From: Desulfobulbaceae bacterium
GTDB lineage: Bacteria; Desulfobacterota; Desulfobulbia; Desulfobulbales; Desulfocapsaceae
Reading direction: 5' to 3'
Length of the DNA stretch: 32,247 bases
Assembly: GCA_008933635.1 (NCBI GenBank)
Contig: WBUQ01000038.1
Span: forward strand, 1-32,247
Position numbers and translations under genes: made by a program. The notes below the pieces were generated by a model. The model ran no database searches. It was not told the DNA's origin and saw only the letters and a program-made list of their open reading frames with translations. Numbering within the stretch: the first letter of the stretch is position 1; each line of letters starts with the position of its first letter. This document shows positions 1 to 6,372 of the stretch, piece by piece.

Positions 1-1938
1 GTCGGTACAGTGGCCGACCATCCTGACCTTCCCGACAAGCCCCAGTTCCTGCACCAGGGCGTTCAATTCTTCGACAAATCCCGGATTCTCCTTCGTGTCT
101 CCCACCAGAAGGGCCTGGAAATCCTCATGCCGCAACAAGCTGAGAGCCTTGATAAAAACGGCTTGTCCCTTCAGCCGGGTAATGCGGCCAGGGAGCATGA
201 CAACCGGCCTGTCGCCGCTGATCCCCCACTGCCGGCGAAGACGTTCCACCCGCTCCCTTTCGACGTTCTCGGGGGCGAACTGCTCGGTGTCGACCCCGCG
301 GAATATCAGCCTGACACCATTTTTCTTGCCGTAATGTTCGTAAATATGCTGCCTGATGCTCTCGGACACGGCGATGACGGCCATGCCTTTAGTCATGATC
401 GCACTGTAGGCATTGACGGAATAAAAACCGTGGAAGGTGGTGACCAGAACCGGTCGTCGATGGGTCGGCAAGGTCTTCCATGCCAGATAACCGATCCAGG
501 CTGGCATCCTCGATCGCAGGTGGAGGATATCGACCTTTTCCCGCTTGAGCAGAGACCGCAGAGGGAGGATATACCGCAGACACACCGGTGACTTGCTGCC
601 AACGTTCCAGCTGAGATGGGAGCTCCCCTCCTTCTCGAGCTGCGGGACGAGTCGGCCCCCTCCTGAAATGACGATCGACCGGTGCCCCTTCTCTGCGAGA
701 TAGCGTCCAACCTCCAGGGTTCCACGCTCAACTCCACCTCCCTCCAGTTCAGGAAGCATCTGGACCACCGTCAGCCGCCGCTTCTCCCTGACCGCTGCTT
801 TTTCCCTGATCAGCCTCAGATACAGATCGACCGTCTTGGAACACATCAGCGAGGCGGTAAAATGCTGGTGAACCCAGGTCTTGCCGGCCTCGCCCATCCT
901 TGTCAGCTTGTTCCTGTCGGCCAGAGCCTGACGCAAGGCATCCGCCATTACCTGAGGGTTTGAGGGCGGTACCAGCCAGCCGTTGACCCCGTCGACCACG
1001 GTCTCCAGACTGCCGCCATGGGCTGTGGCGATCACCGGCCTGCCCATGGCCATTGCTTCGATGGCAACCTTGCCGAAGGCCTCCGGCTGGCTCGACGAGG
1101 CGGAGACGACAACATCGGCGAGCAGCATGGCGGCAGGCATATCCGAACAGTGCCCTACCAGCTTGACCTTTTCCTCGAGCCCGCCGTCTCTGATCTTTTC
1201 CTGGAGTTTTTTTGTATAGGACTGATTTTCCTCGGTATCTCCCACACAAAGGGCGATAAACGGGATATCCCTGATCAGGGCAAGGCAGTCGATAAACACC
1301 TCCTGGCCCTTCCACTGGGTCAAACGCCCTGGAAGCACGACGACGGGCAACTGCTGGTCATCCAGGTGCCACTTCCTCTTCAGGGTCGCCAGCCGGTCCG
1401 GCGATACCAGGGCCGGATCGAAACACTGGGTTTCAAAGCCACCGTGGATCAGTTCTATCTTCTGCGGATCCAGGCCGTAGTTGTCGATAATATGGTCGCG
1501 TATGGTTTTCGAGACGGCGATGACCTTCTCGCCCTTGGTCATAATGGTCGAGTACTTGTTGACCGAATAGAAGCCATGGAAACTGGTGACCAGGGCCGGA
1601 CGAGTCTCGACCGGGAGCATTTTCCAGGCCAGGTAACCGATCCAGCCGGGAAGCCTCGACCGCAGATGGAGGACATCGATCTTCTCTTCCGACATCAGGT
1701 TGCGAAGCTTCTGGATGTACTTCAGGCAGCGCGAGCTCTTTTCGCCGATATGCTGCCAGTAGATATGCTCGCAGCCTCCCCGCTCCAGCAGCGGCACCAT
1801 TCGTCCGCCCCCGGAGATAACAATGGAACGGTGACCGCAACGCGCAAGGTGAACAGCCAGTTCGAGCGTTTCACCTTCGACGCCGCCCTCCTCCAGTTCA
1901 GGAACGATCTGTATGACGCTCAATCTTTCGGTGGCCAT
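1..1938 (-). CDS. Tandem double glycosyltransferase (two GT4 units in one frame), partial
   Basis: The frame is open without a stop from ATG at 1938 to the window edge (646 codons), so the C-terminus is missing. Residues 6 to about 380 form a complete GT-B, family-4-type glycosyltransferase: glycine-rich start PELEEGGVE, SGGGR near 42-46, SFHGFYSVN near 119, donor-phosphate site GRLTQWKG (R205, K210) and EX7E motif E286/E294. From residue 389 a second copy begins (PELEGGGVE, SGGGR, TFHGFYSVN, GRITRLKG) and runs off the edge before its EX7E motif. The copies are more than half identical by eye. The family transfers sugars from nucleotide-sugar donors to envelope glycans; acceptor unknown. The start overlaps the upstream ELM1-family gene by 19 nt, implying coupled expression. 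Two adjacent genes would be the normal arrangement; a fusion is unusual. Membership in the family is secure; the substrate is not. Confidence 0.88.
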   Translation of the reverse strand, partial: MATERLSVIQIVPELEEGGVEGETLELAVHLARCGHRSIVISGGGRMVPLLERGGCEHIYWQHIGEKSSRCLKYIQKLRNLMSEEKIDVLHLRSRLPGWIGYLAWKMLPVETRPALVTSFHGFYSVNKYSTIMTKGEKVIAVSKTIRDHIIDNYGLDPQKIELIHGGFETQCFDPALVSPDRLATLKRKWHLDDQQLPVVVLPGRLTQWKGQEVFIDCLALIRDIPFIALCVGDTEENQSYTKKLQEKIRDGGLEEKVKLVGHCSDMPAAMLLADVVVSASSSQPEAFGKVAIEAMAMGRPVIATAHGGSLETVVDGVNGWLVPPSNPQVMADALRQALADRNKLTRMGEAGKTWVHQHFTASLMCSKTVDLYLRLIREKAAVREKRRLTVVQMLPELEGGGVERGTLEVGRYLAEKGHRSIVISGGGRLVPQLEKEGSSHLSWNVGSKSPVCLRYILPLRSLLKREKVDILHLRSRMPAWIGYLAWKTLPTHRRPVLVTTFHGFYSVNAYSAIMTKGMAVIAVSESIRQHIYEHYGKKNGVRLIFRGVDTEQFAPENVERERVERLRRQWGISGDRPVVMLPGRITRLKGQAVFIKALSLLRHEDFQALLVGDTKENPGFVEELNALVQELGLVGKVRMVGHCTD

Positions 1939-2897
1939 CTTCTCACAATTTCGGCAGCGCAGCGCCTTGCCTCGTTCAGGGGTTCATGTTCTCGCCACTG
2001 CCCTTCCCCGCCGGCAAGCCAGGCTGAGTACGGTACAGCCAGACCGTGGCGGGCAAGATAATCGGCACTTTTCTTGAATTTGTTGTCAGCACGTCTCCAG
2101 GCAACAGGCAGAATGCCGACCCGGCAACCGGCACTCAGCGCCTCATAGACCATGGACATCGAGTCCGCGGTTACCCAGACGACACTGCTCCTGGCGTACT
2201 GTCCCTCGATCCAGCCAGGCTCTGTTTCCTCAAATCTGAAAAAGTCGACATTGGTCAGTTCACTGGCAATTTCAATCATCATTTCGACCATATCCGACGG
2301 AGTGCGGGGCGACGAGGAAACCGTCCAGTGGACACCCGCCCCACGCTGGACGATGGTCCTGATCCGGTCAACGATTTCAGGTGAGCGCCAATGGTGGCTT
2401 TTCGGGTCAACGCCGCCGAGCAGAATCAGACCGGCCGATACGCTCTTTTCCCCCTGTGGCCGCGAGCAGTTCGGCGGTCCGATCGTCGTCACGATATTGC
2501 CGCCGTCGGCGATCCCGTCATGCAGAGGGGCAAAACAGAGGTCGAACCGCGATCGCAGGTAGGAGGCCGGCACCATGCAGGTGATGGCGGGGATGCCAAG
2601 GGCCCGCTTCATCCTCAGCATCGGGACATGGGTCTGCGTACCGGTGCCGATAAGGAAATCGGCCTCCTGGTATCCCTCCAATCCTGCTGTCTGTTTCTGC
2701 GAGAACAAAAGCCCTGCCAGATCCCACACCATCGCGGGCAGGGTCTGGCGCCGGACCTTGATTTCAATCACTTCAAGGTTTACCAGCGCCTCGAGTTCCC
2801 TCAGAATCCCCCTGGTCTGTTTTTCGTGGCCTGGACGCCCATCCAGAAAAGCAATAACCTGCATTGGCCGTCTATGTTCCGTCATGGGATGCAGCAT
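1920..2897 (-). CDS. ELM1/GtrOC1-like family protein, probable envelope glycan function
   Basis: This 325-residue protein resembles the bacterial members of the mitochondrial-fission ELM1 family (PF06258-type), which have a GT-B-like architecture and often sit in LPS core or O-antigen loci. Visible features are the N-terminal FLDGRPGHEKQTRG segment (about 19-32), LIGTGTQTHVPML (about 84-96), LLGGVDPKSHHW (about 158-169), and a C-terminal WVTADSMSMVYEALSAGCRVGILP stretch with the family's typical D-S-M-S-M-x-E-A pattern. Exact reaction unknown; a glycosyltransferase-like role is inferred from the family and from the overlapping double glycosyltransferase downstream. No strong ribosome-binding site separates the three possible ATG starts (residues 1, 5 and 12), so the N-terminus may be up to 11 residues shorter. 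Confidence 0.82.
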   Translation of the reverse strand: MLHPMTEHRRPMQVIAFLDGRPGHEKQTRGILRELEALVNLEVIEIKVRRQTLPAMVWDLAGLLFSQKQTAGLEGYQEADFLIGTGTQTHVPMLRMKRALGIPAITCMVPASYLRSRFDLCFAPLHDGIADGGNIVTTIGPPNCSRPQGEKSVSAGLILLGGVDPKSHHWRSPEIVDRIRTIVQRGAGVHWTVSSSPRTPSDMVEMMIEIASELTNVDFFRFEETEPGWIEGQYARSSVVWVTADSMSMVYEALSAGCRVGILPVAWRRADNKFKKSADYLARHGLAVPYSAWLAGGEGQWREHEPLNEARRCAAEIVRRWPPKD

Positions 2898-2990: not shown

Positions 2991-5240
2991 TTAGCGCTGT
3001 GCTTGCGGAGGAGGACCAGGAGGTGGCTTGCGGACGCCACCGCCGGCCAGTTTGACGATGATCTGGTTGGATTTCAGCAACCTGGTTGTCATGGTTTTAA
3101 ACAGGTGGCTGGAAACATCCGGGTATTTTTCAATGATCTCATCGATCTTGTCGCCGGGGAAGCGCTTGATGGTGCTCCGCCCCATGGACACGATTGTGGC
3201 CGTCCGCTGCTCCCGGGTGATCGCCGCCATTTCACCGAAATACTCTCCCGGCTCGGTCAGCTCGGCAATCTTCTTGCCACCCTTGATTACCGACAGGGCC
3301 CCGCGGATCAGCTTGAAGAAATCCATATCGGTGTTGCCTTCCCGGATGATGATGTCGCCATCATCATAATTCTCCACATCCGGATTGACGAGATAGGCCG
3401 GCAGGCTTTCCTTGTGGGCGACCGTCCGCCGCAACGCTTCCTCGACGCTGGTTATCCCCTGCCTGACTTTCTCAAGCGCCGCCTCCCGCAGCGGCGTCAT
3501 CCCTTCCTGGATCGCAACCTTGCGCAGCTGGTCCTCCGGGACTTCTGCACTGACGGCCTTGCAGACCTCGTCGGTCATCTCCAGCAGCTCGAAGAAACCC
3601 ACCCGTCCCTTGTAGCCAAGACCGTTGCACTCCGGACAGCCTGCCGGCCCATAGGTGACTACCGTGTCGACCTCATCCTCGCGGAATCCGGCATGGAGCA
3701 ATTCGTCCGGCGAATATTTGACGACCCGCTTGCAGCTGCCGCAGAGCCTGCGCCCAAGCCGCTGCGACAGGACCATCGTTACCGACGAGGCCAGCATGTA
3801 GGAGGGAATACCGATATCCATCATACGGCTGATGGTGGCGGCACTGTCGTTGGTGTGCAGGGTGGAGAAGACGAGATGGCCTGTCATCGCCGCCTTGATG
3901 GCGATCTCGGCCGTTTCCATGTCACGGATCTCACCGACCATGATGATATCCGGATCCTGACGGAGAAAGGCTTTGAGGGCGGCGGCAAAGGTCATGCCGA
4001 CCTCGTTGTGGACGTTGACCTGATTGATGCCCTTGAAGTTGAACTCGACCGGGTCCTCGGCTGTGAGGATCTTGATATCTTCGCTGTTGAGGGAGTTCAG
4101 GGCGCTGTACAGGGTCACCGTCTTGCCGGAGCCGGTCGGACCGGTAACCAGCAGCAGCCCCTGCGGTCTGGAAAGACAGCGCTTGAGCATCTCGAAGGTT
4201 TTCTGTTCGAAGCCGAGTTTGGTCAGGTCGACGTTGAGCGAACTCTTGTCGAGGATACGCAGGACCACCGACTCGCCATACAGCGTCGGCAGGGAAGACA
4301 CCCGGAAGTCGACGGAGCGGTTGCGGCCGACCCGCATCTTGATACGACCGTCCTGGGGTACCCGGCGCTCGGTGATATCGAGGCCGGAGAGGATTTTGAG
4401 CCGCGCGACCAGGGCATTCTTGATCGTCAGCGGCAGGTTCATTGCCTTGAACAGCGAGCCGTCCTTGCGGTAACGGACCTGCATGTTCTTTTCATACGGC
4501 TCGACGTGGATATCCGAGACGCCATCCTGGACGGCCTTGACCAGGATGCCGTTCACCAGCTTGATGATCGGCGCGTCCGAGGCGTGGAACTGATCGAGAT
4601 TCTCATCGCCTTCGGAGGAGTCGATTTCAAAATCGTCGGCCGCCTCCGCCAGGATCGACCCGAAGTCATCGACATTGGTGACCGTCTCCTCCTCGTGAAC
4701 CTCTTCCTTGAAGAAGAAAAAGCTGCGCGCCTCCTCATCGTCGATTCCGTAGTATTTCTTGTAGGCTTCGACGATATCGTGCTCCGTCGACACACAGACG
4801 GACAATTCCTTGTTGAGGGAATTCTGCAGTTCCTCGACCGCCATCGAATCGGTCGGCTCGGCCATCGTGACCTGCAGCGTATTTCCCGCCATCCGCAGCG
4901 GGAAAGCCATGTACTGTTTGGCGGTCTCGTACGGCAGCAGCCGCAGCGCATCCTTGGACGGCGGTTCGTTCTTGATGACTACCGGCGGATAGTTATGCTG
5001 CCGGCTGAGGAAGTTGAAGACGGTGTTCTCATCGATGTAGTCGAGCTTGCGGAGGATGCTGCTCAGCCGACTGCCGCTCTTCTGCATCTCCTTCTTGGCG
5101 CTTTCCAGCTGCGATGGCGTTATGTAGCCAGCCTTGCTCAACAATTCGCCGATCTTGAGTTTTCCGGCACCTGACTGGTCCTTGACAGTCTTCTTCATCG
5201 AAGTGCCGGTCCGACTTGCAGTACTCGCTAACGCAGCCAT
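2991..5240 (-). CDS. pilB: PilB/GspE-type assembly ATPase fused to a cyclic-nucleotide-binding domain
   Basis: This is a hexameric cytoplasmic ATPase that would power type IV pilus or type II secretion assembly. Numbered from the ATG at 5240: an MshEN-like N-domain with two LGELL/SSILRK-type repeats (about 28-85), Walker A GPTGSGKT (367-374), Asp box TAEDPVE (393-399), Walker B IIMVGEIRD (432-440), His box with STLHTND (to 465), and the tetracysteine zinc site (C500, C503, C535, C538). After the usual family end there is a cNMP-binding domain (about 622-727) with an intact phosphate cassette, FGEMA (E670) and QRTAT (R679), then a Pro-rich tail. This start was preferred because AGGA lies 11 nt upstream; ATGs at 5294 and 5198 are possible. 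No pilin or pilus genes lie nearby, so pilB rather than gspE is a guess. Confidence 0.85.
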   Translation of the reverse strand: MAALASTASRTGTSMKKTVKDQSGAGKLKIGELLSKAGYITPSQLESAKKEMQKSGSRLSSILRKLDYIDENTVFNFLSRQHNYPPVVIKNEPPSKDALRLLPYETAKQYMAFPLRMAGNTLQVTMAEPTDSMAVEELQNSLNKELSVCVSTEHDIVEAYKKYYGIDDEEARSFFFFKEEVHEEETVTNVDDFGSILAEAADDFEIDSSEGDENLDQFHASDAPIIKLVNGILVKAVQDGVSDIHVEPYEKNMQVRYRKDGSLFKAMNLPLTIKNALVARLKILSGLDITERRVPQDGRIKMRVGRNRSVDFRVSSLPTLYGESVVLRILDKSSLNVDLTKLGFEQKTFEMLKRCLSRPQGLLLVTGPTGSGKTVTLYSALNSLNSEDIKILTAEDPVEFNFKGINQVNVHNEVGMTFAAALKAFLRQDPDIIMVGEIRDMETAEIAIKAAMTGHLVFSTLHTNDSAATISRMMDIGIPSYMLASSVTMVLSQRLGRRLCGSCKRVVKYSPDELLHAGFREDEVDTVVTYGPAGCPECNGLGYKGRVGFFELLEMTDEVCKAVSAEVPEDQLRKVAIQEGMTPLREAALEKVRQGITSVEEALRRTVAHKESLPAYLVNPDVENYDDGDIIIREGNTDMDFFKLIRGALSVIKGGKKIAELTEPGEYFGEMAAITREQRTATIVSMGRSTIKRFPGDKIDEIIEKYPDVSSHLFKTMTTRLLKSNQIIVKLAGGGVRKPPPGPPPQAQR

Positions 5241-5323
5241 ATTTGCAGTGTTCCTGAAGAGCTTATATCCCGGTTCAACTTCTCCAAACGACATCCCAAT
5301 CGGTTAAAGATACTCGTTTGTCC

Positions 5324-5339
5324 TGCAAAAACAAACCCA
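5324..5339 (-). promoter_or_regulatory. Candidate sigma-54 (-24/-12) promoter of the pilB-like gene
   Basis: On the minus strand TGGGTTTGTTTTTGCA matches the invariant GG and GC dinucleotides at the exact 10-nt spacing and the TTGCA of the -12 element; the CAC of the -24 consensus is not conserved. It lies 30-100 nt upstream of all candidate starts. Sigma-54 control of pilus genes is known in several proteobacteria; here it rests only on this match. Confidence 0.35.
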
Positions 5340-5445
5340 TTAATTGAATATCGGACATGCTGCCGTTATTGCCTTTGAGAAGAAAATGAGAAAAGATCCT
5401 CATCGCGGTCGGCGAGTGAATGGATTCTTCCCGCTGCAGCTCAAA

Positions 5446-6372
5446 CTACATGAACGGGTATCTCCGTTGGATCTCTTCGGCCAGCGGGATCATGATCTCC
5501 CGCATCGAAGGCTCGGCTGCCGGCGAGGTCCGGAGTGTAAAAACATGCTTCCACTCCGCAAGATTACAGTACATGATCAGTTCAGTTTTACAGGAATTGG
5601 GTAAAACTGTCCTCGCCGCCTGGGGGGTGGACGTCTCGAGAAGCTGGAGGTACAGGCGCTCGGTCTCCTCCATCGCCTGTTGCCAGAGGCTGTATTCTGC
5701 AGTGCCTTTTTCAAAGAACATCGGTTTGATGAAGGTTACCTGATTGCCGAATTTTTCCTGACTGTAACGACAGTAGCGCTGACTCTCCTGTAGGAAGGAA
5801 CACGGCCGGTGGCGAACAAGCTCATGGGTTACCGCCCTGTTGACGATGAATTTCACCCCGACAAACCGATGTCGCCGCAACAGTTCGGCCGGCAGTGCAT
5901 CCACCTCATCCAGGCTGAGTTTGCGCACGCCGAGGCCTGCCGGCGGCGCCTGCATATCCTCTTCTGCCACCACGCCGGCGAAGAGAAACGGTGACTTGGC
6001 GGAGAGCACCGACAGGATTCCGCGTATGATCGCGTTGTCGGCATGGGCCGCGCCGGCCTCCCGGTAAGCCCTGATCGAGCCGGTGATGAAACAGCCGGCA
6101 GGTGTCGGATCGATGATCAGGTACCTCGGCTGGCAGGCAAACAGGTCTGCCAGCCGTTCGGGACGGCAGGTGACCTCCACGGTCGCCACGGCCATTTCGA
6201 GCACGGAATTGTGCCCATGAGCGGCAACCTTGGTGACGAAGGGAATGGCCGAATCCTCAGTAATCTTATCTTCACTCTTGTAGCAGATCCTGCCGCAGGC
6301 CTCGAGACGGACCGCCAGCGAGGCACGATCGAGGTCATCCTGGATCTCAAACGAGGGTTCGACAATCTTCAT
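5446..6372 (-). CDS. thyX: Flavin-dependent thymidylate synthase ThyX
   Basis: ThyX converts dUMP to dTMP using methylenetetrahydrofolate and reduced FAD, replacing ThyA. The 308-residue protein has the diagnostic RHRxxSxxxxSxR motif exactly (R187-H188-R189, S192, S197, R199) and the upstream HGHNSVLEM segment (52-60) that helps bind FAD. It is longer than the compact ThyX enzymes of about 220 residues, with the extra sequence between about 100 and 180. The ATG at 6372 is preceded by AAGGA 10 nt upstream, inside the end of nifS; the gap from nifS is only 4 nt, so it is probably co-transcribed with nifU-nifS. The gene ends about 150 nt before the secretion ATPase, which may have its own promoter. 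Confidence 0.95.
   Translation of the reverse strand: MKIVEPSFEIQDDLDRASLAVRLEACGRICYKSEDKITEDSAIPFVTKVAAHGHNSVLEMAVATVEVTCRPERLADLFACQPRYLIIDPTPAGCFITGSIRAYREAGAAHADNAIIRGILSVLSAKSPFLFAGVVAEEDMQAPPAGLGVRKLSLDEVDALPAELLRRHRFVGVKFIVNRAVTHELVRHRPCSFLQESQRYCRYSQEKFGNQVTFIKPMFFEKGTAEYSLWQQAMEETERLYLQLLETSTPQAARTVLPNSCKTELIMYCNLAEWKHVFTLRTSPAAEPSMREIMIPLAEEIQRRYPFM

Follow-up and report, generated by a model that had tools for sequence, protein, structure and literature searches.

The start of this window, by which we mean the whole 32,247-nucleotide stretch of the Desulfobulbaceae contig WBUQ01000038.1 that was analysed, raises the question of why two GT4 glycosyltransferases should share one polypeptide and on which glycan such a pair would act. 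The reverse strand (positions 1-1938) holds a stop-free frame of 646 codons that opens with an ATG at 1938 and runs past the contig edge, the contig starting at window base 1. Pfam searches of this frame identified PF13439 and PF00534 twice each, with whole-protein scores above cut-off, and these paired stretches together with the open frame confirm the two GT4 units proposed in a preliminary description of the sequence, i.e., one full GT4 enzyme followed by the first 261 residues of a second (Table 1). No NCBIfam model scored above its cut-off for the fused protein among the best 25 of 41 matches. Judging from relatives, roughly 120 residues of unit 2 are missing beyond the contig edge; when the window's own assembly was searched with the matching end of the complete two-unit gene of a Desulfoprunum MAG (L009), only the same gene and weaker matches elsewhere were recovered, and the remainder of unit 2 was not found.

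Local alignment of the two window units gave 144 identities in 262 aligned columns (55%), somewhat below the roughly 60% that had been estimated by eye for the N-terminal halves, and similarity began at residue 388 rather than at the residue 389 named as the start of the second copy. The landmarks listed in the preliminary description are present in both copies, and the EX7E motif of unit 2 does fall past the contig edge, as it had stated. No stop or frameshift interrupts the junction in the window. An internal start for unit 2 was rejected: in a simple scan of 42 fused genes with consensus letters, no in-frame start close to the junction carried a Shine-Dalgarno-like motif.

Table 1. Features of the fused GT4 gene and its upstream partner in the window
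Feature	Position	Strand	Basis
Unit 1, N-terminal full GT4/GT-B, derived copy, residues 1-385	784..1938	-	frame, Pfam, alignment, tree, columns
Unit 2, C-terminal GT4/GT-B, ancestral-type copy, residues 386-646	1..783	-	frame, Pfam, alignment, tree, columns
EX7E of unit 1, residues 286-294, K at 290 where unit 2 of relatives has R	1057..1083	-	column analysis
GGVE of unit 1, residues 18-21, followed by G-E (R-G in unit 2 and most single-copy relatives)	1876..1887	-	column analysis
GGVE of unit 2, residues 401-404, followed by R-G	727..738	-	frame, alignment
ELM1 family (PF06258) gene, KdoT-like, directly upstream and overlapping, carries SPRT	1920..2897	-	Pfam; PMC12856342 (available portion)

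A search of related genomes recovered the same two-unit architecture widely. In a set of 93 genomes of the window's family, 53 matched unit 1 at E≤1e-60, and 44 of these carry the fused frame, which is ~770 residues long when complete; 42 of the 44 have both domains in one open frame (four of them cut by contig ends), and two more, G028 and G089, were counted as fused because unit 1 runs into unit 2 in one stop-free frame. These two had looked like split or single genes when first inspected by frame, a reading we rejected: the frame changes of G028 (L108) lie inside both units and are indels or sequencing errors in a fused gene, and G089 is cut by a contig edge and has its frame change elsewhere in the gene. 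In G036 (L107) the frame changes at the unit junction itself, within an A-rich stretch, where a genuine split and a sequencing indel would look the same. Unit 1 stands alone in three genomes (G053, G056 and G090), with no trace of unit 2 in the stretch covered, which in G056 ends with the contig about 100 bases past the match. A unit-2-like copy stands alone in four (G035, G047, G001 and G003), and in G035, G047 and G003 the stretches tested held no trace of unit 1; G002 has a GT4 copy of outgroup type. Among 43 loci from genomes of named species there were 12 complete two-unit frames of 765–808 codons between stops (L009-L019 and L035), including that of the isolate Desulforhopalus singaporensis DSM 12130 (L018), and two more frames (L020 and L021) cut by a contig end. 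Outside the family, a draw of 193 genomes from the order gave eight matching genomes, all eight with one unit in frames of 371–422 residues (that of G186 is of single length with an internal stop); at most ten GT4 candidates were scored per genome, so some matches may have been missed. Literature searches showed no earlier report of the fused GT4 pair. Since proteins with several glycosyltransferase modules are already known, e.g., WbdA (PMC11231755, available portion), we rank the pair as a further variant and not as a new kind of protein.

The divergence of the two units is old. In a tree of 121 units, 42 unit-1 sequences grouped with five unit-1-like singles (SH-aLRT 100), and a second group comprised 42 unit-2 sequences and seven singles (SH-aLRT 97); of the named loci only 16 could enter, hand-chosen with the intention that they not duplicate genomes already in the family set. 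When five long or short rows were removed (G144, L033, L030, unit 2 of G031, and L032) support for unit 1 stayed at 100 and that for unit 2 dropped to 41, and a tree holding the other unit-2 sequences together without G001 and G003 was not rejected (AU p 0.598). On these sequences unit 1 is therefore a firm single clade, whereas the boundary of unit 2 is less settled, as is the position of G001 and G003; given that unrejected tree, these two genomes may be unduplicated rather than reduced, and we did not count them as losses. Because the unit-1 copies group together to the exclusion of unit 2, the duplication and fusion are ancestral to much of the family. This supports the earlier claim of a duplication followed by long divergence and fusion, and the trees fit one old event with a few later losses.

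Both units appear equipped for catalysis. EX7E is intact in all 47 unit-1-type sequences of the column analysis, from which G144 was left out, and in 46 of 49 unit-2-type sequences, i.e., in every readable copy, the other three, including that of the window, being cut off. The KG pair and the histidine of FHG are among the columns conserved at 90% or more in both units. In the predicted structure of the L009 protein (pLDDT 89.4, pTM 0.73) there are two similar halves, each modelled with a GT-B fold, unit 1 closing with a helix that ends at residue 384 and unit 2 opening with a strand from residue 390. Residues 4–379 and 386–761 of the model both matched GT4 structures by VIA-align, the best being the Rickettsia africae glycosyltransferase 7mi0 (Z 45; 36% identity to L009 unit 2 over 370 aligned residues), which was also the best solved structure for both units by sequence. 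It is a single unit and shares the R-G, RGV and EAFGR letters of unit 2. Two working active sites are thus the most likely prediction from these motifs.

The two units nevertheless differ at ten columns that are fixed differently between them (at least 85% within each unit, less than 10% shared), several of them within or adjacent to GGVE and EX7E. Arginine in unit 2 is replaced in unit 1 by G at residue 22 (adjacent to GGVE), by G at residue 166 (shortly ahead of the C-terminal domain) and by K at residue 290 (within EX7E). Arginine is also the commonest residue at these columns in 24 single-unit sequences (17, 20 and 22 of 24, respectively), and 7mi0 has it at all three. As unit 2, most singles and 7mi0 keep the arginines that unit 1 lost, we regard unit 1 as the derived copy.

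These columns bear on whether both units might catalyse the same reaction, repeating one linkage or raising dosage. Their common ancestry and 55% identity would suit such a role, as would the occurrence of either unit alone in some genomes; however, the ten diverged columns, several of them at the motifs themselves, and the separation of the two groups on the tree, which gave no sign of gene conversion, make it unlikely. It is also improbable that one unit alone is catalytic in vivo and the other serves as a scaffold or acceptor-binding module. One active copy per pair is a common fate of duplications, and the three arginines kept in unit 2 and most singles are gone from unit 1, but EX7E is complete in every unit-1 copy, the KG pair and the FHG histidine are held in both units, and unit 1 occurs on its own in three genomes. 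The suggestion that one copy is purely structural is accordingly disfavoured, since both motifs are whole wherever readable and each unit is also found alone; the other early suggestion, two consecutive additions to a growing glycan, is the best reading we have, and as a reading of sequence it stands as a proposal.

The gene next to the pair indicates which glycan this may be. In the window the start of the GT4 gene overlaps the stop of an ELM1 family gene by 19 nucleotides (PF06258, E 1e-62). A PF06258 match is present in 51 of the 53 GT4-positive family genomes and in none of the 40 GT4-negative ones; the two positive genomes without it (G062 and G089) have the GT4 gene cut off at the contig end on the upstream side. 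By match coordinates, ELM1 lies directly upstream on the same strand and within 128 nucleotides in 48 of the 51. The gap is 474 nucleotides in G037; in G036 ELM1 is a neighbour on the strand opposite to the GT4 pair, and in G002 it is about 79 kb away. ELM1 does not adjoin GT4 in G138 and lies about 4 kb from it in G109. Single-unit pairs from Desulfobacterota, Gammaproteobacteria and Planctomycetota (L022-L050 except L035) belong to the same GT4 family and have one unit where the fused gene has two; ELM1 was directly upstream in 21 of the 29 loci L022-L050, among them loci from Gammaproteobacteria and Planctomycetota, and no ELM1 match was found in three (L026, L029 and L048). Five Halothiobacillus/Guyparkeria loci gave weak ELM1 matches on the other strand, of which that of L040 was confirmed as PF06258 by Pfam. 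The L040 protein (4953-6230, reverse strand) and its likes in L038, L039, L041 and L047 are longer, divergent ELM1 proteins encoded beside GT4 on the opposite strand.

An ELM1-family protein and an EX7E-bearing GT4 also act together in inner-core assembly in Acinetobacter baumannii, where, according to the available portions of PMC12856342 and PMC10936431, Kdo2-lipid A receives a third Kdo from the ELM1-like KdoT, after which GlcNAcA is attached by GnaT, a GT4 enzyme once called LpsB. In the same portions KdoT and GnaT are described as mutually required in cells, with KdoT active alone in vitro; in that of PMC12856342, a Rickettsia KdoT homologue restores core extension and no complex of KdoT with GnaT was detected, so that Acinetobacter is not known to need the two to be physically coupled. 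In this comparison, made by published description and family, the ELM1 and GT4 genes overlap here, and the systems differ in that GnaT is a single unit of ~42 kDa, whereas the GT4 enzyme here is duplicated and fused. The available portion of PMC12856342 also reports that R180 of the KdoT motif SRRT is important and R179 dispensable; all 36 ELM1 sequences here read SPRT, which we equate with SRRT by motif alone, and R180 would be kept if the motifs correspond. The other comparison, WbdA-type O-antigen polymerases, likewise places two or three glycosyltransferase modules in one chain, one per linkage type (PMC11231755, available portion). In contrast to those O-polysaccharide polymerases, the pair here is a direct duplication that adjoins an ELM1 gene, and some genomes have lipid A/LPS genes close by.

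Enterobacterial LPS has, as textbooks describe, a heptose inner core, and to our knowledge Acinetobacter is without heptose. If the ELM1-GT4 cassette replaces a heptose core, then heptose genes should be absent where the cassette occurs. In the family, a strong heptosyltransferase match (Glyco_transf_9, E<1e-30) was present in one of the 53 GT4-positive genomes (G056) compared to 39 of the 40 GT4-negative ones, and G040 has neither GT4 nor a strong match. A further nineteen GT4-positive genomes gave weak Glyco_transf_9 matches (best E-values 6.5e-11 to 9.3e-19), which for the most part fell in the C-terminal portion of the profile. Matches to GmhA at E≤1e-10 followed suit, in 2 of 53 (G032 and G062) against 34 of 40, although the curated GmhA cut-off was passed by none of the 93. 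PF04413, the WaaA family, was identified in 91 of the 93 genomes and the two without it are 56% and 59% complete, from which we take Kdo transfer to be kept in both groups; most family genomes have two PF04413 matches, with or without GT4.

The pattern recurs across the order, in counts that are not phylogenetically independent: 33 of 35 GT4-positive genomes of the draw lack a Glyco_transf_9 match at E≤1e-25, and 148 of 158 GT4-negative genomes have one. GT4-positive genomes without Glyco_transf_9 occur in five families (f1, f4, f5, f9 and f12), and both states occur within one genus (g22 of f5); such recurrence in five families is hard to ascribe to a single common ancestor. Two genomes, G186 and G209, argue against strict exclusion, as they combine GT4 and ELM1 with a strong Glyco_transf_9 match. 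Of six order genomes with ELM1 and no GT4 match at threshold, three have strong Glyco_transf_9 matches (G129, G193 and G216) and three have none (G108, G117 and G132); ELM1 by itself does not exclude heptosyltransferases. The presence of the GT4 set where heptose enzymes are scarce suggests that these bacteria assemble the base of the outer-membrane sugar chain by another route.

We therefore propose, at a probability of roughly 60%, that the gene encodes a GnaT-like GT4 enzyme, duplicated and fused so as to have two active sites, which belongs to an LPS inner-core pathway free of heptose. A GnaT/LpsB-like glycosyltransferase of the LPS core would long ago have been duplicated in tandem and in frame, giving one polypeptide, of ~770 residues in complete relatives, with two retaining-type GT4 sites. 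WaaA would place Kdo on lipid A and the KdoT-like ELM1 enzyme would add one more Kdo; unit 2, with the ancestral signature, may then add the next sugar, and unit 1, with its three arginines changed beside or inside conserved motifs, another sugar, or it may take another acceptor. The fusion would couple both additions and hold the units at a ratio of 1:1. More broadly, we would speculate, at a little short of even odds, that the ELM1-GT4 cassette has widely replaced the heptose inner core within the order, with several gains or losses, and that in the window's family the GT4 gene was duplicated and fused, with the new N-terminal site adding a different sugar, giving an undescribed heptose-free core.

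The pair could instead act on another glycan, such as an exopolysaccharide, O-antigen or glycoprotein, with the heptose pattern a coincidence of lineage. We clustered 40 loci by gene and annotated 14 cluster representatives, and the neighbours thus identified point both ways. Several are unrelated (GlgB and formate-tetrahydrofolate ligase), the genes downstream of GT4 vary, and the lack of phylogenetic independence noted above would also favour coincidence. However, representatives also included MsbA (TIGR02203, above cut-off), an O-antigen-ligase-family protein (PF04932) and an LpxL-type acyltransferase (PF03279), and by cluster an MsbA-type gene is present in 12 of the 40 loci, the PF04932-type (Wzy_C-type) cluster c15 in nine and the acyltransferase type in three. 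No O-antigen ABC exporter or chain terminator was named among the 14 representatives. As the heptose pattern recurs in five families, and an ELM1-like KdoT transfers Kdo in Acinetobacter (PMC12856342, available portion), action on another glycan seems quite unlikely to us.

That the two genes were joined merely by an assembly or frameshift artefact, as the position of the gene at a contig edge and the junction frame change of G036 might hint, is refuted for the clade by the same in-frame fusion in 44 genomes and in the D. singaporensis isolate, and the chance that it applies to the window is negligible.

Of these results, we consider the link between ELM1 and heptose loss more valuable than the fusion. 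Across several families of one order, heptosyltransferases and the ELM1-linked GT4 gene nearly exclude each other, which points to a different kind of core in these environmental bacteria and extends the probable action in LPS of the family misleadingly named "mitochondrial fission ELM1" past the groups in which it was tested. The fused pair serves as a natural experiment on how a second specificity may arise after duplication of a glycosyltransferase, with three arginine positions named.

Two minor observations were also made. The window gene at 2991-5294 (reverse strand) looks by eye like a GspE/PilB-like ATPase that has an end of cyclic-nucleotide-binding type; cluster c2 lies upstream of ELM1 in many loci. 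The genomes that have unit 1 alone (G053, G056 and G090) or unit 2 alone (G035 and G047) are natural single-unit tests of what each unit adds.
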